From Nitrospiraceae bacterium (GTDB lineage Bacteria; Nitrospirota; Nitrospiria; Nitrospirales; Nitrospiraceae): a stretch of DNA of 64,000 nt. A program made the position numbers and the translations under genes. Below the pieces are notes generated by a model. It did no database searches. It was not told the origin of the DNA and was given only the letters and a program-made list of their open reading frames with translations. Position 1 is the stretch's first letter. Each line of letters opens with the position of its first letter. The stretch lies in NCBI GenBank assembly GCA_919902665.1, contig CAKKRK010000020.1, forward strand, positions 124,001-188,000. Reading direction: 5' to 3'. Shown here piece by piece: positions 1,784-50,293 of this stretch.

Positions 1784-1812
1784 GTGGGGTTCGCATTTCA
1801 TGCAGTCGGCAC

Positions 1813-1840: not shown

Positions 1841-1877
1841 TAGGATTCAGTACTTTCAGTCAGGAGGGGCTTGCGCT

Positions 1878-2180: not shown

Positions 2181-2311
2181 CGAGTCACGGCTCCGAGCTG
2201 GGGATAGACGTCCGGCGTTCAGGACAGGCGAGCGATATGCAGGGTCGTTCTCCACAGGGACGATAAGCTGCGGGGTATTGAGACTGCCACGAGCGGAGCG
2301 AGAACAAGACG

Positions 2312-2851: not shown

Positions 2852-2881
2852 AACGAGGCCTACTGAAGCCGGAGGGGCAAT

Positions 2882-3253: not shown

Positions 3254-3379
3254 CCTTTCAACCACGGGGAATGTTTTGAGTTGCTGGTTTTATGTTGCAA
3301 GTTGAGGAAAGCGGCCATCCGATAACATGAAGCGCGAAACCCGAAACGTGAAGCCTGCCAGCGGACGACGAGGTTCAAG

Positions 3380-30833: not shown

Positions 30834-30888
30834 CACTGAAGGGCAGTATGCCCCAATGGGGTGTCCAAAGAAATCGTGGGGCGGAGGA

Positions 30889-31101
30889 TGTCCGGGCAGT
30901 GGAAGAAAGGGGCGATTCCTGCCAAATGGGATGGCAAGGCGGCGGAGCGGATTGTAGAGCAGTTGGAGAGACTGCTGCTCCCAGGCTGTTGACAGGGGAC
31001 CGGCTCTGCCGTCTTCGGCGGTGCCTGTCCCAGTATCCTGATACTGATCATGGAGGCCTGGCATGAACACTGCGGCGAAGATCGTTGACCCCACGGCTAT
31101 G
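30889..31101 (+). pseudogene. Orphan wecB 3'-end copy D (3' half, plus downstream spacer and first 13 codons of a DUF2442-like gene)
   Basis: GQWKKGAIPAKWDGKAAERIVEQLERLLLPGC*, then spacer with CAGTATCCTGATACTG and MNTAAKIVDPTAM; gap-free to 27761-27973. Confidence 0.85.
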
Positions 31102-31364
31102 CGCTGGAGGGTTGAGGCGAGCACCTGCACGCGAGGCTGGCGGGACGAGCGAGACCGATGCAACAGGGCGTGCCGAGTTTTAAGTTGGGGAGATGTGAGC
31201 CGCGGGAGGTGGGAAGCCGGAAGAGAAATTGGGAGCATCCAGAGCAGTCGAGGTAAGATGATCGGCCGCGCTTGACGCATCCCTTCGAGTATGGGAATGT
31301 TGGGTGACGGTACCGCAGGACAATCGAGCTTGTTACGTTGTCGTTAGATGTTCGCAGAACGGTT

Positions 31365-32847: not shown

Positions 32848-33909
32848 ATGGAGCAATCAGTGACACAGCCCTCTGTCAGTGTTGTAATCCCTGTCTACAA
32901 TGGTGTGCGTTTCATTCAGGAAAGTATAAACAGTGTGCTGACTCAGACAATTGCAGACATTGAAATTATTGTTGTTGATGATGGATCCACTGATGGCACA
33001 ACGGAAGTTGTTCTCGGATACACCGACGCGCGTGTTCGGCTAGTTCGCCTAACTCAGAACTGTGGCCCTGCAGAGGCTCGCAATGCTGGAATTCGTCAAG
33101 CAATGGGGAAGTACATCGCCATGTTAGATGCTGATGATATTGCAGAGCCCACTCGTTTTGCTGAGCAAATTGAGGCAATGGAGCAGGATAAGGAACTTGT
33201 CTGTCTAGGATGCTGGGGTACGGTCATTAATGGTAATTCAAGGCCGACAGGTAAGGTATTACAGATGCAGCCCTGTAGTGATGCATTAGGCGTCCTACTA
33301 TTATTCAGGAACCAAATTATGGGGTCGAGTGTAATGTTTCGTCGGCAGACATTTCCGGAAGTATCATATCCGAACATCCCTATGGCAGAAGACTATAGTT
33401 TTATCGCCGCCATGTCGAAGCTTGGAAAGGTTGGTAATATCCCTAAATTTCTGATGCGCGTTCGTAGAGATGGGACAAGCCTAACTTATGCCAAACAAGA
33501 GCTCATGACTGAATGTGTGGGGCAAATATTGAAACAGCAACTTGAAGGATTTGGAGTTAATCCATCGATACGTGAATTGCAGGTACATCAACATATCGGT
33601 CGACTTATTATGCGGAGCTCGATCTCGCTACTCGAAGAATGTGATAGCTGGTTGCACAAGTTAATTCAGAATAATGAAGTGATACATCGCTTTGAGCCCA
33701 ACACCTTTCGCTCGGTTGCGAGTAAGGAATGGTTCGAACTGTGCAAGCATGCCTCTCCAGCGGGATTCGTTGCATGGCGACGGTATTGGCGTTCGGACCT
33801 CTCGAGGGTTTGGCAACCTAGCACCTTGCAGTGCGTGAGATTTCTGGCGAAGTGTGCGGTGCGACACCGGCGTGAAGGTGGCGATCTCCCAAAGTTTGTC
33901 GCTACGTAA
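32848..33909 (+). CDS. Glycosyltransferase family 2
   Basis: SVVIPVYNGVRFIQESINSVLTQTIADIEIIVVDDGSTDGT...GKYIAMLDADDIAEPTRFAEQ. Confidence 0.93.
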   Translation: MEQSVTQPSVSVVIPVYNGVRFIQESINSVLTQTIADIEIIVVDDGSTDGTTEVVLGYTDARVRLVRLTQNCGPAEARNAGIRQAMGKYIAMLDADDIAEPTRFAEQIEAMEQDKELVCLGCWGTVINGNSRPTGKVLQMQPCSDALGVLLLFRNQIMGSSVMFRRQTFPEVSYPNIPMAEDYSFIAAMSKLGKVGNIPKFLMRVRRDGTSLTYAKQELMTECVGQILKQQLEGFGVNPSIRELQVHQHIGRLIMRSSISLLEECDSWLHKLIQNNEVIHRFEPNTFRSVASKEWFELCKHASPAGFVAWRRYWRSDLSRVWQPSTLQCVRFLAKCAVRHRREGGDLPKFVAT

Positions 33910-35273
33910 TGAGCATGAATATTCGTCTTTTCTTCTTACTCCTACTATTTGCAGTCTTGCTCTTGTCTGAGATGTTCGGTTGGAAACTGGGGGTGTCTCA
34001 GGGGCTGAGTGTCAAGAATGCTTTCCTGTACGGATTTCTTGTTTTGTGCCTGGTTGAACGCATGATGTCGAAAGGTCAGAAGGATCCGCTTTTGACGACT
34101 ATACATGGGCCATTTATTTTCTTAATCCTAATAGCAGGTATATCGTGGATGTTCACGGACGTAAGAACAAACATGCAGCACTATTCGAACGAAGACCGTC
34201 TTATAGCTCTAAAGAGCACGCTGGCGGATTTCTATTTATTTTTCCTGGTCTACTATTTAGGGGTCCGAAAACTGGAGGACGCGATTGTTCTTTCTAAGGC
34301 CATATTGGTTCTCGTCTTTGTCAGTAACATCGTCACCGTTATCGATGTCTATAATATTCCCGATCTGGGAATCGTCAAGCAGATGGATGAGGCTGAGAGC
34401 GAAGCGAATCGAGGAAGATTGATGGGGCCTATGGGTGAGCCAAATCAATACGCGTCGTTCCTTATCTTGTTTTTCCCTTCTTACGTTGCTCTTGCTTTGA
34501 CCTCAACGAGGGGTACGGTTGCGCGGTACACATATTTATCGGCCAGCGTGGCCACCCTCATTGCATTGCTTCTGACGGGTTCGCGTGGTGGTATCTTTGG
34601 TTTGATTGCAGCGGGAGTATGGGGCTACTGGCTTATTCGCACGAAGGTGCGTCTGAAATCGGCGTTCAGAGTCATTCTGATCTCGGTTCCTATAGTAGGT
34701 GTAGCGATAATGCTTGCCGCGATGAAGTATGGCACGCTGTTAATGGGTCGGATCGAAGCGACTTCAAAGGCAGGCACAGCGACAGCTGCTAGTGCAGGGA
34801 GGACGTTGATTTGGGAGATGGGCCTCAATGTGATGGCAGATCATCCGAGTTCCTTTCTTACTGGCATGGGCTGGCATACATTCGCCCCTTATGTGGGTGT
34901 TGTGCCGCATAATACGTATCTCTGGTATTTCTTCAACCTTGGGATAGTAGGGTTGCTGCTCTATTTGGTCATCCTAGGCAACGTCCTGAAATTGACTCGC
35001 AATGCAGTAAGTGGAGAGTCAGTGGATAGCAATATATTGCTTATGGGGTTCATTTTTGGTTTTGCTGGGTTATTAATGTCGATTTGTTTCGTCGATCTGT
35101 TCGCACCATGGTATTTCATCTGGGCCTATATTGGAGTCATGGCTCGTGTGGCAGTGCAGATGAATTTGGAAGTTCAGAAAAGGCAGGAGCAAGCACAAGA
35201 AGGCGGACTCGAAATTGATTTGAATATTCTACCTCCATCTCTCGGTACGGCACCCACAGTTCGTGTGTTATAG
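33909..35273 (+). CDS. O-antigen ligase/polymerase-like membrane protein (Wzy/WaaL type)
   Basis: multi-TM protein with GEPNQYASFLILFFPSYVAL and GMGWHTFAPYVGVVPHNTYLWYFFNLGIVGL. Confidence 0.85.
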   Translation: MSMNIRLFFLLLLFAVLLLSEMFGWKLGVSQGLSVKNAFLYGFLVLCLVERMMSKGQKDPLLTTIHGPFIFLILIAGISWMFTDVRTNMQHYSNEDRLIALKSTLADFYLFFLVYYLGVRKLEDAIVLSKAILVLVFVSNIVTVIDVYNIPDLGIVKQMDEAESEANRGRLMGPMGEPNQYASFLILFFPSYVALALTSTRGTVARYTYLSASVATLIALLLTGSRGGIFGLIAAGVWGYWLIRTKVRLKSAFRVILISVPIVGVAIMLAAMKYGTLLMGRIEATSKAGTATAASAGRTLIWEMGLNVMADHPSSFLTGMGWHTFAPYVGVVPHNTYLWYFFNLGIVGLLLYLVILGNVLKLTRNAVSGESVDSNILLMGFIFGFAGLLMSICFVDLFAPWYFIWAYIGVMARVAVQMNLEVQKRQEQAQEGGLEIDLNILPPSLGTAPTVRVL

Positions 35274-35306
35274 GGTCTTTCTTAAGATAATTTAGGGACT
35301 TTAGAG

Positions 35307-36452
35307 GTGGCGATGCCACAGCGAAAGCCAATCAAAATCTGTCTATTGGGGCTTGAGAACATATCTGTTCTTATGAACGGATTTAACAATGTTCGAGTCG
35401 GCGGGGAACAGGTGCAGCAATCACTATTGGCACGAGCCCTAAGCCCTTCAGGCTATCAGGTATCGATGGTCTGTATGGACTACGGCCAGCCGGATGGGGC
35501 AGAAGAAGACGGAGTTCGAGTATACAAAGCGTATGCTCCGAGTGCTGGGCTTCCTGGGGTTCGATTCATCTATCCTCGCTGGATCAAGCTGTGGTCTGCA
35601 TTGCGACGTGCGGATGCAGACATCTATTACACCAGCTGTGCCGGCATGCAGGTAGGATTGCTCGCACTCTTTTGTGAGCGATACAAGCGAAAGTTTATCT
35701 ACCGAGTAGCATCCGACAACGACTGCAATCCTTCCGGCCTCCTCATTCATTTGGCTAGAGATAAGTACCTGTATGAATATGGACTACAGCATGCACATGG
35801 AATTTTGGCGCAGTCCCAGCAGCAATTTGAAGCGCTCGAAGCAAACTATCAACTGACTTCTCAAATTGCAGGTATGTTTGTAGAAAAGCCGTCTAGAAGT
35901 ATTTCCTATGAGAAGCGGGACATTGATGTACTCTGGGTCAATAATATTCGCCAGTTGAAGCGACCGGATCTGGCACTTGACTTAGCGGAATCTATGCCAA
36001 GTGTTTCCTTCCACATGATCGGGGGGCCAAATGAGCCCGAGTTGTATGAGCGAATCTACAGACGGGCAAAATCACTGAGGAATGTGATCTTTCATGGCGC
36101 GGTCCCGTATAGGCAGGTCGGGGAATTTTATGATCGTTGTCGTGTATTCCTCAACACCTCAGACATCGAGGGGTTTCCCAATTCATACTTGCAGGCATGG
36201 GTGCGTGGTAGGCCGGTGGTCGCATTTTTTGACCCTGATGGAATCATTGCAAGGGAATCTATCGGGTGGGCGGTACGTAGTCTTGATGAAATGACTTCAG
36301 CCATTCACTCGCTTCTTACTCAGGAATCCTTGCTGTATGGCATCGAAGTCCGCTGCCAAAAGTTTATGTCAGAAAATTACAGCGATACGGTCGTACTTAA
36401 GTCCTACCTTCAAATGCTTGAAGGGTTGGCATCTGATAATGCTTCGGGTTAG
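35307..36452 (+). CDS. Glycosyltransferase (GT4-like)
   Basis: GT-B fold; VLWVNNIRQLKRPDLALDLAESMP...FLNTSDIEGFPNSYLQAWVRGRPVVAF. Confidence 0.85.
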   Translation: MAMPQRKPIKICLLGLENISVLMNGFNNVRVGGEQVQQSLLARALSPSGYQVSMVCMDYGQPDGAEEDGVRVYKAYAPSAGLPGVRFIYPRWIKLWSALRRADADIYYTSCAGMQVGLLALFCERYKRKFIYRVASDNDCNPSGLLIHLARDKYLYEYGLQHAHGILAQSQQQFEALEANYQLTSQIAGMFVEKPSRSISYEKRDIDVLWVNNIRQLKRPDLALDLAESMPSVSFHMIGGPNEPELYERIYRRAKSLRNVIFHGAVPYRQVGEFYDRCRVFLNTSDIEGFPNSYLQAWVRGRPVVAFFDPDGIIARESIGWAVRSLDEMTSAIHSLLTQESLLYGIEVRCQKFMSENYSDTVVLKSYLQMLEGLASDNASG

Positions 36453-37947
36453 TCCGAAGGCTCCCAGCAATCCTATGGCGCAATCCTCCTTCAAGAAACA
36501 AGTGCTCTCCCTCACTGCTTCGAGGTTTATCGATTACGGGATGCAGTTCCTCGTGCCTATGATGCTCGCTCGAGTATTTAGACCTAATGATTATGGCCAG
36601 TATATGCTCTTGTGGCTGGTAGTGAACACAGCCCTGACTGTTACGACGCTTCATATGCCACAAAGCTTGCTCTACTTTCTGCCTCACAGCCGCACAGAAA
36701 CGGAGAAAGTTCGGCATATCCTTAACACTATTCTGTTTCTGATTATGACTGGATTGTTAGCATCATGTATCGTTAATCCTTGGGTGCCATTATTGCCGGA
36801 GCGATTTGTTGTGGCTGGAGAGCATGCCTGGGTCGTTCCAGCTCTGGTTTTTCTATGGACGGTGAGTCAGTTAACAGACATTGTGCCCACAGCAGAGGAA
36901 CGTATTGGCTGGCAGGCGTTTGCTGTCATCAGTTTATCCGCGATCCGTGGTCTACTGATTACGGGAATCGCCTGGTATTTCCAAGATATCGGATTGGTTT
37001 TCACAGGGTTGGTGGCCTTCGCCACCATTAAGATCGGCGTGTTCCTTGTCTACCTACTCACATACCACCCGTTAGTGAACTGGGGTATAGACCGAAAGCT
37101 CCTTTGTTCCCAACTAGACTATTCCATCCCTTTTGGCATTGGTGCAGGGCTTTTCATGTTGCGAATTCAGGCTGATCAATGGATCGTTGCAGTGCTCTTC
37201 TCTGCTGGGGAATTTTCCCTCTTTGTTATAGGTGCCTACTTGGGGCCATTGTTAACGGTGATACGAGAATCGGTCAATTCAGTCTTACTGCCGAAGCTCA
37301 GCCGACTCCAGGCGGAAGGAGATCGGGAAGCAGTGATCGAGTTATCCCGTACAAGCAATATTCACATGGCGTTCATCCTCTTCCCACTTCTGGTCTGGTT
37401 TTTCATTTTCTCTGGCGACGTTATCGAAGTAGTCTTTTCCTCAGTGTACAGAGATGCGTCGACAGTGATGCGCATTTATATCCTGAGCTATCTAACGATG
37501 ACCTTTGAGGTCAACAATCTGTTCAGGGTTCTTGGCGGAGGTCGATATAGTATTTATCTGTCGTTAGGTCTGTTGGTTCCGGCCGTTTCCACAAGCTTTT
37601 GGGGCGGTATCACGTATGGTCTGTGGGGGGCAGCTTTGGGAGCGGCAGTGGTGACATACATTGGAGAAACCTTAAAGCTAAAATACGTTGCGAGACAGCT
37701 GGCTGTCTCTGTGGCGCGCGTTGTGGACTGGCAAAGTTGGGCAATCCTTTTTACCGCGAGTATTGTAGCAGGTGTGTTTGCTCATGAAACAATAGAACGA
37801 TTCAGCGGTCATATCCAAGGGGCATTCTTGCGATCAGTTCTTGGTGCAGGAATTATCGCGGCAGTCTACTCTCTGTTGGTTATTGTGACGCGCGGTTCCC
37901 TGTTTTCGGCTTGGTTCAACATGGTTCGTATGAGGCCTGCCCCATGA
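36439..37947 (+). CDS. Oligosaccharide flippase (Wzx-like)
   Basis: ~12 TM; ASRFIDYGMQFLVPMMLARVFRPNDYGQYMLLWLVVNTALT; true start 36439 or 36475. Confidence 0.85.
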   Translation: MLRVSPKAPSNPMAQSSFKKQVLSLTASRFIDYGMQFLVPMMLARVFRPNDYGQYMLLWLVVNTALTVTTLHMPQSLLYFLPHSRTETEKVRHILNTILFLIMTGLLASCIVNPWVPLLPERFVVAGEHAWVVPALVFLWTVSQLTDIVPTAEERIGWQAFAVISLSAIRGLLITGIAWYFQDIGLVFTGLVAFATIKIGVFLVYLLTYHPLVNWGIDRKLLCSQLDYSIPFGIGAGLFMLRIQADQWIVAVLFSAGEFSLFVIGAYLGPLLTVIRESVNSVLLPKLSRLQAEGDREAVIELSRTSNIHMAFILFPLLVWFFIFSGDVIEVVFSSVYRDASTVMRIYILSYLTMTFEVNNLFRVLGGGRYSIYLSLGLLVPAVSTSFWGGITYGLWGAALGAAVVTYIGETLKLKYVARQLAVSVARVVDWQSWAILFTASIVAGVFAHETIERFSGHIQGAFLRSVLGAGIIAAVYSLLVIVTRGSLFSAWFNMVRMRPAP

Positions 37948-37973
37948 AGTATCCAGGGCATAAATGTTGAGTT

Positions 37974-39254
37974 ATGAGAATGAACACATACAAAAATCTG
38001 ATCTTGTGTCCAATCAGTATTGCGTTGTTGATTATATTTGGTGGGTGGGAAATGGGTGCTCATGCTGCAGCCCCCCAAGGGTTTCCCTTGATTATGGCCA
38101 TGAATATCGGGAAAAAAAATTACGATGACCCTGAATATTTGGCAGCTCTGAGTCGGCCTAATTTTGTGATACTTGGCTTTTATCCAGACTGGCGAGGGAA
38201 AGACGGAAAATCGTCTATAGAAGCCGTTGTGCAAGCTATTAAGAAACGGAACCCTGCGATTCTTATCGGACAATACACAATACTGAGCGAAACCCAAGAT
38301 TCAACAGACCGCACAAGCGCAGATACCGATAAAGGCAAGAAACTAGATCGGGAAGGTTGGTGGTTACTAAATGCAAATAAGAAACGAGTGCAATGGACCG
38401 ACAAATATAATGCCTTCGAGGCCAATATCACCCAATGGACAAAGCCTGATGAAAAAGGCTTACGGTATCCCGAATGGGTTGCGCATCGCGACTACGGTAT
38501 TTATTTCAGAACAATTCCTGGGTTCGACATCTGGTATTTCGATAATGCATTGAGCAAGCCCGCCGTAAAAACCGCCGACTGGAATCGCGACGGTAACAAC
38601 GATGCAAATGATAACTCTGAAATATTACGGGCTCATCGCTCGGGCCATGTAGCAGAATGGCGGAAGGCTCGTGAATTGCGTCCCGATATCTTTCTCATGG
38701 GTAACTCGGATGACCTGTCATCGCCTGAATTTTCAGGAAATCTACAGGGCGCGTTTTTGGAGGGATTGATAGGAGTATCCTGGTCGATGGAGCGTTGGCA
38801 AGGGTGGGAGAAGATGATGTCTCGATATCACTCAGCCATGATTCATACCGCATCACCCCACCTTGTGGGATTTAACGTATGGGGGAGAGCAGACGATTAC
38901 CAGCAAATGCGGTATGGCCTTACCTCTTGTCTCTTAGATAATGGGTACTTTTCTTATACTGATCCCAACGTCGGCTATAGCTCTGTCCCTTGGTTCGATG
39001 AATTTGACGTGCACCTTGGCGATCCCGTAGCCCCTGTCCAAACAGAGCCCTGGGAGCAAGGTATCTATCGGCGAGTCTTTCAACATGGGTTGGTCCTCGT
39101 GAATCCAGGAGCCCTCGCAAGGACCGTTCGGCTCAACCCTGGGTATAGGCATTTCGACGGAACCCAAGTCCCCGAGGTCAACAATGGAAAGCCCGTGACG
39201 AGCATAACCATCCCTTCAAAAGACGGGATTATCCTTATTCGCATGGATCGGTAA
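37974..39254 (+). CDS. Secreted putative glycoside hydrolase (GHL15-like TIM-barrel)
   Basis: signal peptide; FVILGFYPDW, FDIWYFDNAL...DWNRDGNND, LRPDIFLMGNSDD, GAFLEGLIGV. Confidence 0.6.
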   Translation: MRMNTYKNLILCPISIALLIIFGGWEMGAHAAAPQGFPLIMAMNIGKKNYDDPEYLAALSRPNFVILGFYPDWRGKDGKSSIEAVVQAIKKRNPAILIGQYTILSETQDSTDRTSADTDKGKKLDREGWWLLNANKKRVQWTDKYNAFEANITQWTKPDEKGLRYPEWVAHRDYGIYFRTIPGFDIWYFDNALSKPAVKTADWNRDGNNDANDNSEILRAHRSGHVAEWRKARELRPDIFLMGNSDDLSSPEFSGNLQGAFLEGLIGVSWSMERWQGWEKMMSRYHSAMIHTASPHLVGFNVWGRADDYQQMRYGLTSCLLDNGYFSYTDPNVGYSSVPWFDEFDVHLGDPVAPVQTEPWEQGIYRRVFQHGLVLVNPGALARTVRLNPGYRHFDGTQVPEVNNGKPVTSITIPSKDGIILIRMDR

Positions 39255-39264
39255 TACGAGGCGC

Positions 39265-40389
39265 ATGCATAAAGTCTTATTCGTTGTTCCCTCATTGATG
39301 CGAGCCGGCGCCGAGACGCAGCTTGTTGATCTAATCAATGGTTTACCCAAAGAGGAGTTTGGGAAGTATCTCCTGAGTTTTGAAAGTGGTCTCGACCAAT
39401 TATCGAGGGTAAACCAAAATGAAGTTGTCTTTGTCCATATCCCTCGCCGGTATAAATTCGACCTTGCTGTCGCCAAGGCTATCGCGAAACTCATCGACGA
39501 AGAGCAAATTGTAGCCGTCCATTGTTCTTTGCAAATTGCACTTTTCATGGGATGGCTCGGAATTAGACTAGCCAAGCGGAAACCTGCACTCATGGTTACG
39601 GTCCACACCACACTGAACCGTTCATTCAGAGAAGAAGCATTCGACTGGTTGTTGTATCAGTGGCTGATGCGATCGTGCGAAAAGGTCCTTTTTGTTTGCA
39701 GGAGTCAAGCGACGCATTGGCAAAAGAAATTTCCATTCCTGAAGTCTCGGGCGGTAGTCGTGCATAACGGAGTTGATGTGGAATATTTTCGACGTGAGCC
39801 GTTCGAAGAAACCGGGCGGAAACTGCGAGAGGGGCTAGCGATTCCACCCAACGCAGTAGTCCTCTGTCATATCGCAGCATTCAGGCCAGAAAAGGGCCAT
39901 GACGTATTACTTGCCGGGTTTGTTGACGTACTGCAAAATCATCCAAACACATATCTACTCTTTGCTGGGGATGGGCCACTCCGTGCTTCCATCGAGTTGC
40001 ACGTTTGGCAGAAGCAACTTGATAGGCACATTCGTTTTCTCGGAAGTATCACGGACGTTCGGCCCCTGTTGGCCGGCTCTGCTATGTCAATAGTACCCTC
40101 CACAGCCGAAACGTTCTCGATGGCGATGTTAGAGTCGCTCGCGATGGAAGTGCCCGTAATTGCGACAGCCGTCGGTGGCTCTTCGGAAGCGGTCCAAGAT
40201 GGACAAACTGGGTTATTGGTTCCACCGCGGGACGTCATCGCCCTCGCACTGGCAATTGAGCAACTGATAGTCGATGCCGAAGCTCGAAAGAAAATGGGGG
40301 AGATGGGAAGGGCTTTAATAAAAGAACGATTTACCCAACGCGGTATGCAGGCAGCAACCAGCGAAGTACTAAAGTCCGTTCAATGCTGA
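39265..40389 (+). CDS. Glycosyltransferase (GT4)
   Basis: VPSLMRAGAETQLVDLINGL...AAFRPEKGHDVLLAGF...VPSTAETFSMAMLESLAMEVPVIATAVGGSSEAV. Confidence 0.92.
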   Translation: MHKVLFVVPSLMRAGAETQLVDLINGLPKEEFGKYLLSFESGLDQLSRVNQNEVVFVHIPRRYKFDLAVAKAIAKLIDEEQIVAVHCSLQIALFMGWLGIRLAKRKPALMVTVHTTLNRSFREEAFDWLLYQWLMRSCEKVLFVCRSQATHWQKKFPFLKSRAVVVHNGVDVEYFRREPFEETGRKLREGLAIPPNAVVLCHIAAFRPEKGHDVLLAGFVDVLQNHPNTYLLFAGDGPLRASIELHVWQKQLDRHIRFLGSITDVRPLLAGSAMSIVPSTAETFSMAMLESLAMEVPVIATAVGGSSEAVQDGQTGLLVPPRDVIALALAIEQLIVDAEARKKMGEMGRALIKERFTQRGMQAATSEVLKSVQC

Positions 40390-40546
40390 TCGCCGCAATG
40401 CCTCAGGGAGCCCGGATCGCTATTGAATATCGTCGGCAATGTTCCTCTCTCACACTTTCTCGGATAGTGATTTATCAAGTCAGCATGATCGATTACCTGC
40501 CGATTGTTGGAAAGAGGCACGCGGGATCCCTGTGACGTAGTGGAGT

Positions 40547-41635
40547 ATGCAGATGCCGGAAAAGAAATGTATCGTCATGGTAGGTCCTTCAATACGTTCC
40601 CAAGGTGGAATCTCCACAGTTGTCATGAGCTGGCAGAAGGCCGGGCTATTTGAGCGATGGCCTATTACATTTCTCGAAACCCATATAGAAGGAACCACGC
40701 TCAACAAACTGCGCGTCGGTTGTACTGCCTTTCTGCGATTCATGATCTTGTTGATATCGAACCGAGTCGCTTGCCTCCATCTACACGTCGCCCGACATAC
40801 AAGCTTTTGGCGCAAAGCAATTTTTTCTCTGGCAGCTTTTCTGATGCGCCGGCCGGTGCTACTTCACTTTCACAGCGGGGGGTTCCCTGCCTTTTATCAC
40901 GACGATTGTAATTGGCTGCAGAAACAAGCCGTCCAGTTTATACTGAATCACGCCGATCAACTGATCACTGTGTCTTCGAGCTGGGGCGAGACCCTTAGCC
41001 TCATTTCCACAAATCGTCGCATTACCGTTATCGAAAACTTTCTAGTTCCACCATCAGAAATACCTGACGACGCAATTCGCAATAAAGATCACGTTCTATT
41101 TCTCGGCCTCTTGAACCGTGATAAAGGCTTCTATGATCTGCTTGAAGCCGTCGCGCCACTCTGCAATGAATTCCCGTCACTGGTACTCGCGTGCGGAGGT
41201 AAGGGGAATCGGGCCGAAGTGAACGAACGAATTAAGCGCTTGGAAATCGAGAGCCACGTTAAACTTCTAGGCTGGATCACTGGCGCATCCAAGGACACTT
41301 GGCTGGCTCGTGCATCATTCTATGTTTTGCCGTCATATGTAGAGGGTATGCCTATGGGAGTCCTTGAGGCGATGGCTTGGGGTATGCCAGTGGTGGCAAG
41401 CACAGTAGGGGGGGTCCCAGACGTCGTCGAGCATGAACGTGAAGGACTTCTGATAGAAGCGGGGGACATTGCTGGTCTCCGTGATGCAATGAGGAGGTTA
41501 CTCAAAAATGACGAAGAGCGAAAGCGGATGGGGCTGGCGGCTAGGAAGAAAATGGAACTTGCATTTTCTTCCAAGGCCGTTGTTCCCCGTATCGATCTTT
41601 TGTATGGAGCGTACTGCGAGCACTCATGCCATTAG
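40547..41635 (+). CDS. Glycosyltransferase (GT4)
   Basis: GPSIRSQGGISTVV...FLGLLNRDKGFYDLLEAV...LPSYVEGMPMGVLEAMAWGMPVVASTVGGVPDVV. Confidence 0.92.
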   Translation: MQMPEKKCIVMVGPSIRSQGGISTVVMSWQKAGLFERWPITFLETHIEGTTLNKLRVGCTAFLRFMILLISNRVACLHLHVARHTSFWRKAIFSLAAFLMRRPVLLHFHSGGFPAFYHDDCNWLQKQAVQFILNHADQLITVSSSWGETLSLISTNRRITVIENFLVPPSEIPDDAIRNKDHVLFLGLLNRDKGFYDLLEAVAPLCNEFPSLVLACGGKGNRAEVNERIKRLEIESHVKLLGWITGASKDTWLARASFYVLPSYVEGMPMGVLEAMAWGMPVVASTVGGVPDVVEHEREGLLIEAGDIAGLRDAMRRLLKNDEERKRMGLAARKKMELAFSSKAVVPRIDLLYGAYCEHSCH

Positions 41636-41669
41636 ATAAAGTAGTCTTGGCACGTAGGGAGGGGCTTAG

Positions 41670-42503
41670 ATGAGTCCAAAACGTATTGAATTGTTGGGCG
41701 TCCCAGTTGATTGCGTGACCATGGAGCAAGCCATCGAATGGGCTGAATCAAAATTACAGGGGAACCATCCCTGCACAATTCTGGCTGTGAATCCCGAGAA
41801 AGTGATGCGTGCCCAGCAAGACAGCGAGCTCCTTGATCAGCTCCGGTCTGCCGATCTGCTTATTCCTGATGGTATCGGTGTCGTCCTCGCCGCCCGTCTT
41901 TTGGGGTTAGGCCACGCTGAGCGAATCCCTGGCTCCGAACTGATGCCAAAACTCTGCGAGCGAGCTGCCTCGAAAGGCTATGCAGTGTTCCTCTTTGGGG
42001 CGAGCACTGAAGTCAACCAGCGAGCTGTCACAGTTTTACGTGACCGATATCCGGGGATTCGCATAGTTGGGTTCCAACATGGTTATGTGAAAGAAGAAGA
42101 GATGCTCTCACTCATCGCACGCATCAACGAGTGCCAGCCTGACCTTCTCTTTGTTGCATTAGGCAGTCCACAGCAAGAACTGTGGATGGCTCGGTATTTG
42201 CCACTCTTGAAAGTGAAAGTTTGTCAGGGGGTTGGTGGAACCTTTGACGTCATTGCAGGTAGGGTGAAGCGTGCACCGTTTTTATTCAGGTCTATGCATC
42301 TTGAATGGTTCTACCGGTTGCTCTCACAGCCTAGTCGTATTTTCAGGCAGACTGCACTCCTGGTGTTTGCTTATCAGGTTCTGAAAAGCAAGTTTACGCG
42401 GAAGTCAGTTCAGCAACCTACCTTCTCCGTCCCAACAGCCTCTGTATCACGTGGACTTCCTGATTCAGGTAAGTCTGACCATCATAGGGAAAAAGCTGCC
42501 TAG
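41670..42503 (+). CDS. WecG/TagA/CpsF family glycosyltransferase
   Basis: NPEKVMRAQQDSELLDQLRSADLLIPDGIGVVLAARLLG...RIPGSELMPKLCERAASKGYAVFLFGA...LFVALGSPQQELWM. Confidence 0.93.
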   Translation: MSPKRIELLGVPVDCVTMEQAIEWAESKLQGNHPCTILAVNPEKVMRAQQDSELLDQLRSADLLIPDGIGVVLAARLLGLGHAERIPGSELMPKLCERAASKGYAVFLFGASTEVNQRAVTVLRDRYPGIRIVGFQHGYVKEEEMLSLIARINECQPDLLFVALGSPQQELWMARYLPLLKVKVCQGVGGTFDVIAGRVKRAPFLFRSMHLEWFYRLLSQPSRIFRQTALLVFAYQVLKSKFTRKSVQQPTFSVPTASVSRGLPDSGKSDHHREKAA

Positions 42504-42710
42504 CTTGCGAGGCAAACTAGGTGAGGCTTTCTTCTAGTTTCTGGCTAACCGTATACTTTTTGTGTAATGAGGTGTGCTGATGCAGCAGCATACCTTTTCT
42601 ATATATTCTTCTTTACATAATTGAACATCGTTGTGGGGACATGCACACAGCTGCCGACGCAGGCCTCCATCATGCTCTTTATTTTTCAGTGACATACACG
42701 GTGCATTTGC

Positions 42711-42726
42711 TGGTCTGGGATTTGCT
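42711..42726 (+). promoter_or_regulatory. Sigma54-type promoter upstream of VPLPA-CTERM gene 1
   Basis: TGGTCTGGGATTTGCT (GG-N10-GC); conserved identically before gene 2. Confidence 0.7.
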
Positions 42727-42799
42727 CAGCAATCTTCCCATTGCTACCGACTGATATGTGTTCCTTATGTGTCAACCTCTAGAAGGAGTGGTGATAGAG

Positions 42800-43459
42800 A
42801 TGATGAAACAGTGGCTTAGGAGAGGATTCATGCTGCCGGCTGCCGCAGTGTGTGCCCTATTGATTCCCTGTGCGGCAGCTCAGGCAGCGTTTATTCAGTA
42901 CTCCTTTACCGGAACTGTCGGGGGGGCGAGTGGAGCATTGAGGTCCGATATACCGGTGGGGTCCGCAATGTCAGGGACCTTTTCTTTTGATCCTACAACG
43001 TCGCCCACTGGCACCGGCCGGTATATGGGAGCGCTACAGGGTTTCTCGCTGAACGTTGGGGGCTACTCGGTCAGTTTCGATCCCTCCGGTGACGTGAACC
43101 TTATCCGACTTACCGATAACCCTTCCGGCGATCTATGGCGTCTTAGGACTTCCGTCATGGGGGATGGTATCGGGCAATACTCACCAACGGAATTCCGTCT
43201 GGATTTGGCGGATGAGGATGGCCTGGCGATCAATGGGACCTCTCTTCAGGATCCTCCAAGTCTCGGAAGTCTCACCTCGACTCACTGGCGACTTGTGTTT
43301 GAGGATGCAGATGGAAGAATGGTTAGGATTCAAGGAGTCTTGAATAGTTTGACGGCAGTGCCGTTGCCAGCCGCAGTGCTTCTGTTCGGTGCGGGCCTCA
43401 TCTCGCTGGTTGGTCTGGGTGCGGGAGGGTTGAGAAATCTCCGCGGGGCCAAGGCGTAG
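42800..43459 (+). CDS. VPLPA-CTERM sorting-domain protein 1 (exosortase substrate)
   Basis: signal peptide; C-terminus AVPLPAAVLLFGAGLISLVGLGAGGLRNLRGAKA. Confidence 0.88.
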   Translation: MMKQWLRRGFMLPAAAVCALLIPCAAAQAAFIQYSFTGTVGGASGALRSDIPVGSAMSGTFSFDPTTSPTGTGRYMGALQGFSLNVGGYSVSFDPSGDVNLIRLTDNPSGDLWRLRTSVMGDGIGQYSPTEFRLDLADEDGLAINGTSLQDPPSLGSLTSTHWRLVFEDADGRMVRIQGVLNSLTAVPLPAAVLLFGAGLISLVGLGAGGLRNLRGAKA

Positions 43460-43484
43460 TCAAGAATCTCGTTTCTGATAGCTG

Positions 43485-43516
43485 GGGCTTGATATCCCGA
43501 GCGGGGTATCAAGCCC
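43485..43516 (+). terminator. Stem-loop terminator-like hairpin after VPLPA gene 1
   Basis: GGGCTTGATATCCC-gagc-GGGGTATCAAGCCC followed by gttctttct. Confidence 0.65.
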
Positions 43517-43662
43517 GTTCTTTCTCCGAAATTGATCGACAGATCGCCGAGTACCATAAGATATTTACATAATTGAACATCATCGATGGAATGTGCACAC
43601 CGTCGATTTAGAGAACCTGTCTCGCCATTCTTCGTTTTCAGTCACATAGAAGGTTCAACGAA

Positions 43663-43678
43663 TGGTCTGGGATTTGCT
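43663..43678 (+). promoter_or_regulatory. Sigma54-type promoter upstream of VPLPA-CTERM gene 2
   Basis: TGGTCTGGGATTTGCT, same sequence and spacing as 42711. Confidence 0.7.
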
Positions 43679-43747
43679 CAGCAATCATCCCATTGCTACT
43701 AACTGATACGTGTTTCTTATGGTGCAGTCTCTAGAAGGAGTGGTGAT

Positions 43748-44407
43748 ATGCAGTTGATAAAGGAATGGTTTAAGAGAGGATTTATCCTGCCGGCAACAGC
43801 AGTGTGCGCCCTCTCGGTTCCGATCTCAACAGCGCAAGCGGCTTTCGTGAACTACTCGTTCATCGGCAGTATTGACAATGATCCTCAGGCGTTGTCCCCG
43901 ATTTCCGGATCATTTCAATTCGACAATGCGACAGGTGGCAGCGGCGGCGTCTACAATGGAGCAGTAACGGGTTTCACTCTGAATCTTAGTGGGCTCTACA
44001 CGTCATCCTTCAAGCTAGGTGCCAACGCCGTCACGATTTCGAAGAATATCACTCTTGGTGGCGGCAATGGTGATCGTTGGGAACTGTCGTCTGCCGCTAC
44101 TGGTTCCAATCTGAATGGTTTCACGGCGTACGATTTTGATCTTCGTCTCGACCGTGTAGGAGGAGGATTGTTTGCAAATACGGACCTGCAGAACCCTCCA
44201 AGTTTGAACGGTTTGAATGGTGTGACCGGAAGATGGCGACTCTTTTTCGAGGATGCGAATGGTAATCCAGCCGTGTTTCTCGGATCAATTACTAGTCTGA
44301 CTGCCGTGCCGTTGCCGGCGGCGGTGCTCCTGTTCGGAGCGGGCCTTATTTCGCTGGTTGGTCTGGGCGCGGGAGGGTTAAGAAATATCCGCGGAGTCAG
44401 GGCGTAA
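43748..44407 (+). CDS. VPLPA-CTERM sorting-domain protein 2 (exosortase substrate)
   Basis: signal peptide; C-terminus AVPLPAAVLLFGAGLISLVGLGAGGLRNIRGVRA. Confidence 0.88.
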   Translation: MQLIKEWFKRGFILPATAVCALSVPISTAQAAFVNYSFIGSIDNDPQALSPISGSFQFDNATGGSGGVYNGAVTGFTLNLSGLYTSSFKLGANAVTISKNITLGGGNGDRWELSSAATGSNLNGFTAYDFDLRLDRVGGGLFANTDLQNPPSLNGLNGVTGRWRLFFEDANGNPAVFLGSITSLTAVPLPAAVLLFGAGLISLVGLGAGGLRNIRGVRA

Positions 44408-44432
44408 TCACGAACCTCGTTTTTGACACCTG

Positions 44433-44464
44433 GGGCTTGATACCCATCACGGGGTATCAAGCCC
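44433..44464 (+). terminator. Stem-loop terminator-like hairpin after VPLPA gene 2
   Basis: GGGCTTGATACCC-loop-GGGTATCAAGCCC perfect 13-bp stem followed by gttcgttctt. Confidence 0.68.
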
Positions 44465-44589
44465 GTTCGTTCTTCAAAATCAATCGACAGATCGCCGGGT
44501 ACCATAGATAATCAGGTTTCGCCTCACTCTTCTGGATCGGCGTAGCTCTTTTGACTCATTCCCTATCATCGTGTGAGTAGTGCTGTTGT

Positions 44590-46164
44590 ATGGCTAGCAA
44601 TCGCTCTCTTCTCCTCACTTCAGCCTTGGTCGTGGCGCTATTGGGCTATATGTATGCAGACAGTCTTGTCTTCTTGTTCAGCCGCTGGGTTGGCACCGAA
44701 GATTATAGCCACGGAATCTTTGTACCGTTCATCAGTGGGTATTTGATTTGGCAATCCCGGCGCTGTCTCAGCCAGGTTTCGGGGGAGAAGTCATGGGTGG
44801 GGCTTGCGGTCATTGCTCTGGGGCTCATGCTCTATGTGGTGGGGGAATTCTCCACGCTGTTTATTGTTCTCCATTTCTCTTTGTGGATGGTGATCGTCGG
44901 ATTGGCCATCGCACTGCTCGGGATTCGCGGGGCGAAAGCCATCGCGTTTCCTCTCGGCTATCTCCTGACCGCAATCCCTCTTCCGACGTTTATCATTGCG
45001 AGTCTGTCGAGCCAACTTCAACTGTGGTCCTCATCGCTCGGAGTCGGATGCCTGCAGCTTGTCGGTGTGATGGCCTTTCGCGAAGGCAATGTCATCGATC
45101 TGGGGACGGTGCAGCTTCAAGTGGTAGAAGCGTGTAGTGGGATTCGATACCTGCTTCCCCTCGCTTCTCTCGCGCTGCTCTGCGCGTACCTGTTCAAAGA
45201 CAGGATGTGGAAACGAGTGGTGCTCGTGCTTTCCTCGATTCCAATCTCGATCATGCTGAATGGTTTTCGCATCGGCATGATCGGAGTGCTCGTCGAGCTC
45301 TATGGGAAAGGTGCGGCAGACGGCTTTTATCATCTCTTCGAAGGGTGGGTCATTTTCATGGTGAGTTTCTGGTTGTTGATTGCAGAGATGGCGCTCCTAG
45401 CACGAATAGGGGAGGTGAAGTCGCAAGGGGCTGTCTTTGACCGATTGACCTGGAGAGATCAATCAGAAGCGAGCGCCCATCAGGCCGCGTGCATGGGGCC
45501 AGGCCGAATCCAATCGTCTCCACGCCACGCCTATTTGTGTAGCGTAGCCCTGCTTGCCCCATTTACGTTGTTCTCGACCGTGGTTGCGGATCGTCAAGAA
45601 AGTTCTCCTCCCCGCACGGCGTTCGTTGATTTTCCGATGCAGATCAACGGCTGGCAAGGATCGCCCTTTCCTCTTGAACCACAATACATCGACGCACTTC
45701 GGTTCGATGATTATGTCCTGGCGGACTATCGATCGGGTAATAAGCAGCCGGTGAATTTCTATGCTGCCTACTACCGATCACAACGGAAGGGGCAATCGGC
45801 GCATTCGCCTCAAAGTTGTCTGCCGGGTGGAGGATGGGAAATCGCTTCCCTGACGCAACGGGATCTGCCGATGTCGCAGGGAATGATGCAGCCGCTCAAC
45901 GTCAATCGGGCGGTTATTCAGAAGGGGGATCAGAAGCAAATCGTCTTGTACTGGTTCAAGCAACGCGAGCGACATATCACAAATGAATACCTGGTCAAGG
46001 TCTACTTACTGTGGGATGCCTTTTCTCGGCAACGGACTGACGGGGCTCTTGTGAGATTGGCCTCGTTGGTTGGTCCAGGGGAATCTGAGTCCACAGTTGA
46101 CCAACGGCTTCAGGAGTTCGCGGTTGTAGCCGGGCGGGAATTGACTAGGTTCGTACCAGACTGA
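44590..46164 (+). CDS. Exosortase fused to EpsI domain (probably VPLPA-CTERM-specific, XrtD type)
   Basis: multi-TM with catalytic VVEACSGIRYL (Cys), MLNGFRIGMIGV (Arg), FYHLFEGW (His); C-terminal EpsI (SPQSCLPGGGWEI). Confidence 0.88.
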   Translation: MASNRSLLLTSALVVALLGYMYADSLVFLFSRWVGTEDYSHGIFVPFISGYLIWQSRRCLSQVSGEKSWVGLAVIALGLMLYVVGEFSTLFIVLHFSLWMVIVGLAIALLGIRGAKAIAFPLGYLLTAIPLPTFIIASLSSQLQLWSSSLGVGCLQLVGVMAFREGNVIDLGTVQLQVVEACSGIRYLLPLASLALLCAYLFKDRMWKRVVLVLSSIPISIMLNGFRIGMIGVLVELYGKGAADGFYHLFEGWVIFMVSFWLLIAEMALLARIGEVKSQGAVFDRLTWRDQSEASAHQAACMGPGRIQSSPRHAYLCSVALLAPFTLFSTVVADRQESSPPRTAFVDFPMQINGWQGSPFPLEPQYIDALRFDDYVLADYRSGNKQPVNFYAAYYRSQRKGQSAHSPQSCLPGGGWEIASLTQRDLPMSQGMMQPLNVNRAVIQKGDQKQIVLYWFKQRERHITNEYLVKVYLLWDAFSRQRTDGALVRLASLVGPGESESTVDQRLQEFAVVAGRELTRFVPD

Positions 46165-46196: not shown

Positions 46197-47831
46197 ATGG
46201 TGAGTGAGCTGTTCTTTAGTTCCATGACCGCCTTGCTTGTGTGCATGGCGCTGATCCCACTCTTGCGGCTCATAGCAGAGCGGTTGAAGATTATGGATCA
46301 GCCTGGGGGGCGGAAAGTTCACGAACATCCGGTTCCACGGATCGGCGGGATTGCTTTTGCCGTTGGTGCCTGCGCGTCGATCGCCTGGTGGGGCGAGAAA
46401 GATGCCGTCACCCTGTCGGTTCTGCTGGGCTGTGTAATCATCGTGGCGTTCGGGGTTTGGGACGACCGCGTCGATCTTAGCTATCGAAGCAAACTCGTTG
46501 GCCAGCTGTTCGCCGCCCTTGCCGTTGTGTTAGGCGGGGATATTTGGTTTACCACTCTTCCGTTTCTCCCTGATGTGGAGGTGCCGGCATGGGTGGGGAT
46601 GTGTGTCACCGTTCTGTTTCTTATTGGTGTCTCCAACGCTGTCAATCTGACGGACGGGTTGGATGGGTTAGCTGGTGGGCTGTCGTTCCTGACTCTATCT
46701 GGGATTGCCTATTTAGCCTATCTTTCCAATGATTCGACTGTCTTGTTCTTGACGGTCCCATTTCTTGGCGGGCTTTTGGGATTCCTACGCTACAACACCT
46801 ATCCGGCTCGCATTTTCATGGGAGATGGCGGCAGCCAATTGTTGGGCTTCATCATGGGCGTGCTGGCTGTTCTGTTGACGGATTCGTCACATGGTCCGTT
46901 CACTCCCAGCCTCGCATTCTTTCTGTTGGGGTTGCCATTTCTGGACACGCTCGGCGTGACGGGACAGCGGTTGGCAGAAGGCCGTCCTCCATTCGTCGGC
47001 GACCGGGCGCACATTCACCATAAACTGCTTCGCTTTGGATTCACGCACTATGAGGCCGTGACCCTCATCTATGTGATTCAGGCAAGCATGTTGAGCTTGG
47101 CCTATGTCCTACGATGGCAGTCTGAGCTGGTTATCCTAGTACTCTATCTCACGATTGCGGGATCGGTCTTGATGTTGTTTATCGCAGCAGGGCGAGGACT
47201 GCTACCCAGTCTCACGGCACAAAGTGGTCATTTCCTCTCGAATGTGGTTGTGCGGCGAGTGATGAGTGGTCCATGGCTGACGAATCTGCCCATGCAATTT
47301 CTGGCCGTGATGGTGCCAGGTTTCCTCATTGTGCTGGTATTTGTCCCATCGAATGTGCCGGCCGATGTTGGGTACCTCTCGATCATCATTTTTGGGATTG
47401 TGTTACTCGGCCTCTCGCTCTCTCCTCGGATTGCGCCGTACTTTGTTCGTGGTGGGCTCTATGTTGGGACGACTTTCCTCCTCTATGTCTGTGAAGCGTC
47501 ACGATATCAATCCATGTCCGCTGTTGCGATGCTCCACAATGCATTCTTTGTCGTGGTTGCCGTGATGGTCATCTTGAGTCTCCGGTTCAATGAGGAGAAT
47601 CGCTTTCAAACCACACCGCTCGATTATCTGATGGTGTTCTTGGCGGTGACTTTCCCGCTGCTTCCGGAAGTGAGCGCCGATATTGCGCATCTAGGTGTCT
47701 TCGCCGCCAAGCTGATGGTGCTCTTCTTTTCTTTTGAGTTGCTGTTCCATGCTTTTGCCAACCGTGTCCGACAGCTTGGTCTTGTATCGCTCTGGATTCT
47801 GTTCGGGCTCGGAATTCGGATTTTGTTGTAG
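46197..47831 (+). CDS. WecA/MraY-family polyprenyl-phosphate glycosyl-1-phosphate transferase with extended C-terminal membrane region
   Basis: DQPGGRKVHEHPVPRIGGIAF, NLTDGLDGLAGGL, ARIFMGDGGSQLLGF, DRAHIHHKLLRFG. Confidence 0.92.
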   Translation: MVSELFFSSMTALLVCMALIPLLRLIAERLKIMDQPGGRKVHEHPVPRIGGIAFAVGACASIAWWGEKDAVTLSVLLGCVIIVAFGVWDDRVDLSYRSKLVGQLFAALAVVLGGDIWFTTLPFLPDVEVPAWVGMCVTVLFLIGVSNAVNLTDGLDGLAGGLSFLTLSGIAYLAYLSNDSTVLFLTVPFLGGLLGFLRYNTYPARIFMGDGGSQLLGFIMGVLAVLLTDSSHGPFTPSLAFFLLGLPFLDTLGVTGQRLAEGRPPFVGDRAHIHHKLLRFGFTHYEAVTLIYVIQASMLSLAYVLRWQSELVILVLYLTIAGSVLMLFIAAGRGLLPSLTAQSGHFLSNVVVRRVMSGPWLTNLPMQFLAVMVPGFLIVLVFVPSNVPADVGYLSIIIFGIVLLGLSLSPRIAPYFVRGGLYVGTTFLLYVCEASRYQSMSAVAMLHNAFFVVVAVMVILSLRFNEENRFQTTPLDYLMVFLAVTFPLLPEVSADIAHLGVFAAKLMVLFFSFELLFHAFANRVRQLGLVSLWILFGLGIRILL

Positions 47832-47860
47832 CAAGACGAGTTACGTAATAACCTAGGCTT

Positions 47861-50293
47861 ATGCGTGTACCATTTTTGTATAGCAGTAGTCGGGAGATGT
47901 TTGGCATGCGTGTGATGAGCGGAATCATTCTTCTGGCCGCCGTCACACTGACAGCGTGCGGTGGTCCTGAGGAAAGAAAAGCGAAGTACCTTGCCAAGGC
48001 GAATGAGTACATAGACGCAGCCAACTATCCCAAGGCCCGGGTCGCCCTGAGAAACGTGCTAAAGATCGATCCCAAAGACGCGGAGGCCTACTATCTCTTT
48101 GCTCAAGTCGAAGAAAAAGAGAAAAACTGGCGCAATGCTGTTCAGCTGTATCAGGAGGCTGTGCGCCTGGTCCCCGATCATGCGGCCGCCCTCATTACTC
48201 TGGCGAAGTACTATCTTGAAGCAAGACTGACGGAGCAGGTGGTTCAAGCAGCGGACACGGTGCTCAAAAAAGATCCCCGCAATCCGCAGGCCAGTGCGCT
48301 GAAAATTGCGGCTCAGGCCGTAACGGAAGCAGCCATTCCTTCGGTCATTCCCAACGCGGAGGCACTGGCGAAGGAGTTTCCAACAGACCCAGATGTTGCC
48401 ATCCTACTCGCGACATTGTACGGCCAACAACGGCGCTATAGGGAAGCGGAGACGACGTTGAGGCGTGCCCTTGACTCCCATCCGAGGGACCTAGATCTTT
48501 TGAATAATTTGAGCAGGATCTTGACGCAAGCCAACAATATGGCCGGTGCCGAGGCTGTTATGCGGTTGATGGTCGCGGCTGAACCGACATCCATTGATCA
48601 TCGAGTAAGACTTGCCCGCTTCTATGTCGGACAGGGGGCGCAGAATAAAGCGGAAGCTGTGTTGCGAGAGGCAATCGCACTGGATCCAAACAGCGAACAG
48701 CGGAGGATCATGCTCGCGGAGTTGTTTGTGAACACAAAGGATGTGGCCGCTGCCGAACAGGTGCTTCTTGATGCGGCGGAGCAAATCCCGCATTCAACCC
48801 ACATCCAATTCGGGCTCAGTGCGCTCTACAGAAAGGGCGGACAGGACCTCAAGGCTCGTCAGCGCTACGCACTATTGGTCAAGGAGTACACAGACAAACC
48901 TGTCGGCCTGGAAGCCAAGATCAAACTGGCAGAGATGGATTTTGTGGAAGGGAAGCAGGTTGACGCGGAACGTCAGGTGCAGGAGGTGTTGAAGTCCAAC
49001 CCTCGCTCATCGGATGGACTGATTCTTACAGGACGTATGGCATTGACCAGACGAAACGGAAAAGAAGCGGTGCAGGCGTTTCGCACCGTTCTGCACGATC
49101 AGCCAGAGTTGGCCACGATTCACTATCTCCTTGGCCGGGCCTATCAGTTGACCGGAGACACGAATCTTGCGAAAGACAGTTTTGAGCGGGCTGTAACGCT
49201 GTATCCAGACCAGATGGATGCGAAACGGTCTCTAGCCGTTCTTGAGAGCAAGAGCGGTCGTTATCAGCAGGCTCGCGCTCGGCTCGATGACTTGCTGAAA
49301 CAGCGTCCCGATGATGTGATTGCTCTCGACATGCTGATGACGCTGGACCTGGTCACGAAGAATTGGCAGGATGCCGAACAGACATTGGCGCGGCTTCGCC
49401 AGATATCCACCGGCAATAATCCTTTGGCCTTGTTAGCCGAAGGGCGGTTTCATGAGGCTCAGCGTCGTCTGAGCGAGGCGAGGCGAGCCTATGAGCGCGC
49501 AACGGCACTGGCTCCGAACGAACCAGAGCCACTGTTGTCTCTCGTGAAGGTAGAGGTAGCGTTAGGACAAGCATCGCAGTCCAGAACCCGTCTGGAAGCT
49601 CTTCTTGCTTCCCGCAAGGACCATTCGTTTGCGCATGGATTACTGGGAGAGGTCTTGGCCCTCACGCGAGAGTATGAAGGGGCAGTATTCCACTATCGGG
49701 AGGCCGTACGAGTAAATCCAAAGTGGATGACGCCCTGGCTCAACTGGGCCATGTTGTCGCTGTCCCAGAGGAAACCGGATATAGCCATACAGGTTCTAGG
49801 AGAAGGGCTCAAGGCCAACCCTGAGAGCGAGGAGTTGCACATGCTGTTGGCCTCTGCGCGCTCCGAGCAAGGACAGATCGATCTTGCTATAGCTGCATAT
49901 GAGACGACCTTGCGGCTGAATTCTCGAAACCTGCTGGCGGCGAATAACCTGGCAGTTCTACTTGTGGACCACAAGCGTGATCCATCGAGTTTGCAAAGGG
50001 CCTTTTCGCTCAGTCGAGATTTTGAAAAAGAGGCGCCGCATCCTCTCTTTATCGATACGCTCGGCTGGGTGCGATTTAAGATGGGGCAACAGGAAGAGGC
50101 AATTCGGTTGATGAAAGATGCCGTCGCCAAATCTCCGGACATGTCTGTCCTGAATTATCATCTTGGGATGGCATTGTTTCAGTCTGGTCAACGTGTCGAG
50201 GCCCGTACTTATTTGTCAAAGGCGCTCAAGAGTTCCGATTCATTCGAAGGGCGGCAAGACGCAGAGCAGGTGCTCGCCCAACTAAGGGGGTAA
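47861..50293 (+). CDS. PEP-CTERM-system TPR-repeat lipoprotein (PrsT-like)
   Basis: lipobox LTAC, ~20 TPR-like repeats; position within exosortase/EPS locus. Confidence 0.82.
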   Translation: MRVPFLYSSSREMFGMRVMSGIILLAAVTLTACGGPEERKAKYLAKANEYIDAANYPKARVALRNVLKIDPKDAEAYYLFAQVEEKEKNWRNAVQLYQEAVRLVPDHAAALITLAKYYLEARLTEQVVQAADTVLKKDPRNPQASALKIAAQAVTEAAIPSVIPNAEALAKEFPTDPDVAILLATLYGQQRRYREAETTLRRALDSHPRDLDLLNNLSRILTQANNMAGAEAVMRLMVAAEPTSIDHRVRLARFYVGQGAQNKAEAVLREAIALDPNSEQRRIMLAELFVNTKDVAAAEQVLLDAAEQIPHSTHIQFGLSALYRKGGQDLKARQRYALLVKEYTDKPVGLEAKIKLAEMDFVEGKQVDAERQVQEVLKSNPRSSDGLILTGRMALTRRNGKEAVQAFRTVLHDQPELATIHYLLGRAYQLTGDTNLAKDSFERAVTLYPDQMDAKRSLAVLESKSGRYQQARARLDDLLKQRPDDVIALDMLMTLDLVTKNWQDAEQTLARLRQISTGNNPLALLAEGRFHEAQRRLSEARRAYERATALAPNEPEPLLSLVKVEVALGQASQSRTRLEALLASRKDHSFAHGLLGEVLALTREYEGAVFHYREAVRVNPKWMTPWLNWAMLSLSQRKPDIAIQVLGEGLKANPESEELHMLLASARSEQGQIDLAIAAYETTLRLNSRNLLAANNLAVLLVDHKRDPSSLQRAFSLSRDFEKEAPHPLFIDTLGWVRFKMGQQEEAIRLMKDAVAKSPDMSVLNYHLGMALFQSGQRVEARTYLSKALKSSDSFEGRQDAEQVLAQLRG

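Follow-up and report, generated by a model that had tools for sequence, protein, structure and literature searches.

The two tandem units found in a 64 kb stretch of Nitrospiraceae DNA (the window) are probably expression cassettes with constant ends. Each carries one exosortase substrate, and the middles of the substrate genes appear to have been swapped by recombination between Nitrospira lineages; on the sequence comparisons this reading is given a probability of about 0.72. The architecture, its conservation, the decoupled histories and the break points can be read directly from the alignments and trees. Homologous recombination would be the mechanism of exchange, and the benefit would come from surface variation.

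Two cassette units in the window

Both units are 952 bp long and the copies are spaced 952 bp apart. In each the order is ACATAATTGAACATC, TTTTCAGT.ACATA, TGGTCTGGGATTTGCT, inverted repeat, TCTAGAAGGAGTGGTGAT, gene and hairpin (Table 1). DNA identity between the units is 88% from promoter to ATG, 85% in the tail and 83% in the 3' hairpin region, while at the protein level the ectodomains are 38% and the full-length sequences 51% identical. The initial annotation of two units of about 950 bp with common ends and diverged middles therefore stands, with all of the elements that it named present. Gene 1 most likely starts at the ATG at 42800, rather than at the mechanically assigned GTG at 42758; unit 1 has lost the ATG position from which the gene of unit 2 starts. 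The inverted repeat is present solely in the closest relatives of the window.

Table 1. Features of the cassettes and their surroundings (positions in the window)
Feature	Position	Strand	Basis or remarks
Glycosyltransferase/wzy/wzx/wecG genes, variable polysaccharide island	32848..42503	+	upstream of the cassettes
Upstream element of unit 1 (ACATAATTGAACATC), proposed enhancer site	42615..42629	+	motif search; conserved 93-97 bp before the -24 box in 45/48 units
Second conserved upstream element of unit 1 (TTTTCAGTGACATA)	42683..42696	+	28 bp before the -24 box; conservation across units
-24/-12 (sigma-54-type) promoter of unit 1 (TGGTCTGGGATTTGCT)	42711..42726	+	motif searches
Inverted repeat AGCAAT-N6-ATTGCT, unit 1, spanning the expected start site	42728..42745	+	sequence and relatives
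RBS block of unit 1 (TCTAGAAGGAGTGGTGAT), common to both	42778..42795	+	sequence comparison
VPLPA gene 1, 219 aa	42800..43459	+	signal peptide ~aa 1-30, exchangeable ectodomain ~aa 31-182
VPLPA sorting tail of gene 1	43358..43456	+	tail searches and alignment
Hairpin after gene 1	43485..43516	+	folding z = -4.6
Upstream element of unit 2 (ACATAATTGAACATC)	43567..43581	+	motif search
-24/-12 promoter of unit 2 (TGGTCTGGGATTTGCT)	43663..43678	+	motif searches
Inverted repeat AGCAAT-N6-ATTGCT, unit 2	43680..43697	+	sequence and relatives
RBS block of unit 2 (TCTAGAAGGAGTGGTGAT), common to both	43730..43747	+	sequence comparison
VPLPA gene 2, 219 aa	43748..44407	+	AlphaFold: all-beta ectodomain aa 33-188, C-terminal helix aa 189-209
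VPLPA sorting tail of gene 2	44306..44404	+	tail searches and alignment
Hairpin after gene 2, between gene 2 and xrtD	44433..44464	+	folding z = -5.7
xrtD, VPLPA-CTERM-specific exosortase with fused EpsI (DUF3485) domain	44590..46164	+	TIGR04152 550.2 bits, cut-off 400
Conserved backbone after xrtD: WecA-like transferase, PrsT-like TPR protein	46197..50293	+	profile matches and cross-genome coverage

Each motif is weak when taken alone, since shuffled versions of the 64 kb reached two matches to the degenerate promoter pattern in 22 of 100 cases, and two matches to the upstream element with 3 mismatches in 33 of 100. The ordered set of motifs is not explained by chance. In the whole genome (3.56 Mb in 240 contigs, 99.9% complete) the exact promoter 16-mer is confined to the two units, and the compound pattern CATAWTTGAAC-ACAC-TTTTCA has 2 forward matches, both in the units, against 0 control matches.

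The exosortase match starts 183 bp past the second unit. It identifies the partner as XrtD, well above the TIGR04152 cut-off, which bears out the proposal of an exosortase-D-type enzyme directly downstream. The substrate tails score 10–12 bits against TIGR03370, below its cut-off of 25.35, and in both the VPLPA motif, hydrophobic helix and basic end are visible by eye. XrtD would be the enzyme that cleaves them. The named relatives of both VPLPA proteins are all from Nitrospira, which assigns the genome of the window to this genus. No further VPLPA genes were found in this genome: strong tails occur in the two units alone, a weak match on contig C218 proved to lie in an oxidoreductase-like frame, and another on C230 is weak (E 0.3, 44% identity). 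With one exosortase match and two strong tails, the genome has one XrtD and two recognisable substrates.

Between genomes, the median alignment coverage is 0.00 for the 3.5 kb preceding unit 1, compared with 0.92 for the 2.5 kb from xrtD onward. The cassettes are therefore placed where a variable sugar island meets a conserved export backbone; export genes of the polysaccharide locus are also found downstream of xrtD. An association of ectodomain type with the adjacent sugar island was not evident, as loci L095 and L099, and likewise L100 and L125, share an island and not ectodomains, and L116 and L118 show the reverse. The polysaccharide region also contains IS3-type transposase genes (29605–31280, minus strand).

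In the AlphaFold model of the unit 2 protein (mean pLDDT 72, from eleven sequences) the ectodomain is all-beta, and a single helix follows it at the tail. No match to the ectodomain fold below E 0.001 was found among solved structures. Across 296 genomes of the phylum, a search at E 1e-9 recovered the tail class from a single family only, in three genera.

Conservation of the cassette ends in Nitrospira

The same architecture recurs in 52 units from 46 Nitrospira loci. The comparison drew on some 60 genomes of the genus, with about 80 XrtD loci. Where XrtD is at least 60% identical to that of the window, a VPLPA gene nearly always precedes it by a few hundred bp, most commonly by about 180 bp. 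The -24/-12 motif has 62 matches in 1.39 Mb, counting both strands, of which 50 are upstream of a VPLPA codon, with 48 of these 50 positioned 626–695 nt before it. The GG-N10-GC of the -24/-12 boxes is conserved among the units with exact spacing. Likewise, the TTTTCA element is 28 bp from the -24 box in 39 of the 41 units that carry it.

The upstream element is present in 45 of 48 units at 93–97 bp from the -24 box, and at exactly 95 bp in 32 of them. It is likely, from this nearly fixed distance, that the ACATAWTTGAAC element is an enhancer site, as had been suggested for it. Dispersed VPLPA paralogues away from xrtD have the same promoter elements in ten further loci. The pairing of promoter and VPLPA gene, which was to be sought genome-wide, is thus limited to the two units in this genome and recurs in its relatives, including at the dispersed paralogues. 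A more diverged tail class (GLVALAGLGAGSW) has neither the upstream element nor the promoter. The clade of L104 and its relatives is without the long hairpin and its upstream element is diverged.

A stem was found in 42 of 48 units by a simple 10-pair test; several of those in the L104 clade are merely short or shifted, and most of the remaining six units have a stem by another search. Many of the pairs show compensatory changes in which both partners are altered (C-G to T-A, for example, or A-T to G-C), and the hairpin is followed by an interrupted T-run. It is likely that the hairpin is a terminator or attenuator ahead of xrtD, which would keep the substrate more abundant than the exosortase. 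Neither the hairpin nor the 5' UTR matched a known RNA family, and folding of the 5' UTR was no better than that of shuffled sequences.

Three other arrangements were seen. Genome G013 (L044) has a VPLPA gene with a full promoter, divergent from an OmpR-type response regulator gene, and no XrtD at E 1e-60. In G018 there are eleven consecutive genes with VP[VL]PAA-type tails (L221, 244–13603), without a -24/-12 promoter by the pattern used. L131, L133, L136, L138, L139 and similar loci carry a second exosortase of XrtD-like type, which shares about 50% identity with that of the window, and no VPLPA gene was found in the upstream sequence examined.

Regulation

The initial annotation placed the units under RpoN control. 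The sigma-54-type promoter is indeed tied to VPLPA genes (50 of the 62 motif matches) and rpoN is present in this genome, where the promoters would depend on its product. PrsR, suggested with it, did not hold up. The best matches in this genome are 429.6 bits for PrsR (cut-off 502.6) and 104 bits for PrsK (cut-off 300). The TGTAAA..TTTACA dyad seen beside prsR in other Nitrospira (G032 and G007) is absent from the window and from all 48 VPLPA upstream regions. A different enhancer-binding protein is therefore expected, and inspection of the window's larger ORFs brought none to notice.

Haft et al. (2006, PMC1569441) described, upstream of proteobacterial PEP-CTERM genes, a motif ending in TTTACA together with a sigma-54 site, matched by PrsK, PrsR and PrsT; among the genomes then at hand the pair occurred in Proteobacteria alone. 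It is highly improbable that the units described here belong to this regulon. They have its general layout of enhancer motif, spacer, -24/-12 promoter and long upstream region (PMC1569441), and a PrsT-like gene is close by, but the spacing is about 95 bp rather than about 63, in addition to the lack of the dyad and of PrsR or PrsK above cut-off. In those Nitrospira that do have prsR, PEP-CTERM genes of the VPEPAS type were found with the TGTAAA..TTTACA dyad and a -24/-12 promoter (L215, 13116–13706 and 17873–18556; L216, 17263–17946, minus strand). This regulatory pair resembles the one that was reported in 2006 for Proteobacteria alone (PMC1569441).

Separate histories of ends and ectodomains

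Pairwise identities were correlated with those of XrtD over 37 units adjacent to xrtD, with 1000 permutations. All end regions track XrtD (rho 0.55–0.81): the upstream element at 0.81, the promoter-to-ATG region at 0.77, the hairpin region at 0.78 and the tail DNA at 0.58, each reached in 0 of 1000 permutations. For the ectodomain rho is 0.03 in DNA (347 of 1000) and -0.01 in protein (516 of 1000). Along the protein, the correlation drops to zero past the signal peptide and is restored at the tail. As a control, the WecA-like protein correlates with XrtD at 0.89 and with the ectodomain at 0.00. AU tests on the ectodomains reject the XrtD tree (3e-25), and those on XrtD reject the ectodomain tree (7e-6). 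Judged by these correlations and trees, the ends and the exosortase are of one history and the ectodomain is of another.

Individual pairs of loci illustrate this. L101_1 and L162_1 are 93% identical in ectodomain DNA, 84% in the tail, 65% in the promoter and 62% in XrtD protein; for L125_1 and L128_1 the values are 89%, 73%, 65% and 73%. The reverse is seen between the window and G017, where promoters (92–97%), tails (84–94%) and hairpins are all within 84–97%, and identity falls, at sharp edges, to 47% in the ectodomain protein of unit 1 and 24% in that of unit 2. G065 and G066 share a 10.9 kb stretch at 99% identity that stops a few bases short of the -24 box; past that point they are unrelated, which places a recombination point at the promoter itself.

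The initial annotation saw a duplication-diversification cassette. As a history this is incomplete, as the discordant trees and zero correlation indicate that middles have been exchanged between lineages. No such exchange would be required if the units had arisen by ordinary tandem duplication and their mature domains had then diverged rapidly in place, with the ends held by selection. Signal peptide, tail and promoter are under obvious functional constraint, the two ectodomains can still be aligned (38%), and the duplication is old, since copy 2 of four genomes has orthologous upstream DNA in common. This explanation is nevertheless quite unlikely, because it does not account for distant lineages that have 89–93% identical ectodomain DNA while their ends and XrtD are at 62–84%, nor for the lack of correlation between ectodomain and locus, and a common tree is rejected by the AU tests. 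Alternatively, whole cassettes may have been transferred between genomes, after which gene conversion overwrote their ends with the sequence of the resident copy. Dispersed and degenerate copies exist, so that donors and recipients with several copies are at hand for this. It too is unlikely, as the ends within one genome are not homogenised: of 12 copies in two-copy genomes, 11 have a tail that is nearer to one from a different genome than to that of their partner copy, and in-genome conversion of the tails is on this count not supported as the source of the similar ends.

The compared genomes are one per species and many are MAGs. Tandem near-repeats are difficult for short-read assembly and many of the genomes are in more than 100 contigs, so that collapsed repeats or mixed strains might generate a mosaic. 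That the mosaic is such an artefact is scarcely credible, because swaps lie inside long contigs (976 kb in G017, 4.54 Mb in G065 and 692 kb in G066) and reading frames are intact across the cassette joints. Degenerate cassettes with intact promoters are present in G025 (L169, ~1754–3380, oriented by xrtD, and L170, 2414–3246), one of which is interrupted by stop codons and followed by a transposase-like frame.

The preferred reading is thus exchange of the ectodomain between constant ends. The 5' end (upstream element, -24/-12 promoter and 5' UTR with RBS) would activate the gene through RpoN and an enhancer-binding protein other than PrsR and, with the signal peptide, direct the protein to the membrane. 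At the 3' end the VPLPA tail would pass the protein to the adjacent XrtD, and the hairpin would terminate or attenuate the transcript. Recombination between Nitrospira lineages would replace the all-beta ectodomain, the break points lying close to where the signal peptide is cleaved and directly ahead of SLTAVPLPA, and the ends and xrtD would remain with the locus. The role of the ends as recombination arms is putative, since their conservation is expected from function alone too. At 65% identity in the promoter, ends of distant lineages are too diverged for ordinary homologous recombination, and exchange between them would need intermediates.

Significance and comparison with known systems

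Nitrospira, which live in flocs and biofilms, have a major part in nitrite oxidation in wastewater plants and drinking water. We know of no identified adhesive proteins of these flocs and biofilms. The cassettes provide candidate matrix or surface proteins with a dedicated switch, the exposed parts of which would be traded between lineages. This suggests that the cell surface can be changed without rebuilding the parts for control and anchoring. Sigma-54-type control of exosortase substrates would also extend past Proteobacteria, with a different activator. More tentatively, and at somewhat less than even odds, there may be a family-wide, recombination-fed repertoire of exosortase-anchored surface proteins in Nitrospira, in which a dedicated promoter with a sigma-54 activator and the constant tail serve as fixed sockets for exchanged ectodomains beside an equally variable polysaccharide island, with surface variation driven by phages, grazers or floc partners.

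No description of exosortase substrates with constant ends and a variable middle was found in the literature searched. The XrtD/VPLPA-CTERM system as modelled (TIGR04152, TIGR03370) is matched in the exosortase, which is above cut-off, and in the VPLPA motif, hydrophobic helix and basic end of tails that are nevertheless below theirs. With the PEP-CTERM/EpsH system and its PrsK/PrsR (PMC1569441) the locus shares an exosortase, a C-terminal sorting tail, an enhancer motif with -24/-12 promoter, a long upstream region and a PrsT-like TPR gene. It differs in being from Nitrospirota, in the sequence and spacing of the enhancer, in having no PrsR or PrsK above cut-off, and in having only two substrates, which are beside their exosortase and have exchangeable ectodomains. 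In Aquincola tertiaricarbonis, pepA-prsT depends on RpoN1, has a mapped -24/-12 promoter and is needed for floc formation, and a stem-loop comparable to the hairpin described here lies between pepA and prsT (PMC9850573). An exosortase-type substrate gene, a -24/-12 promoter and a stem-loop ahead of the next gene are thus common to both, whereas the tail here is VPLPA and not PEP, the substrate adjoins xrtD, and PrsK/PrsR are present in Aquincola (PMC9850573).

With one genome per species, constant flanks were found around a middle of discordant history, as is expected of recombinational surface variation. At recombining surface-protein loci such as the Clostridioides difficile S-layer cassette (PMC7677006), surface features are likewise varied by homologous recombination at a conserved position; there it is the surface-layer locus that varies, whereas in Nitrospira it would be the ectodomain alone, between regulatory and sorting ends.
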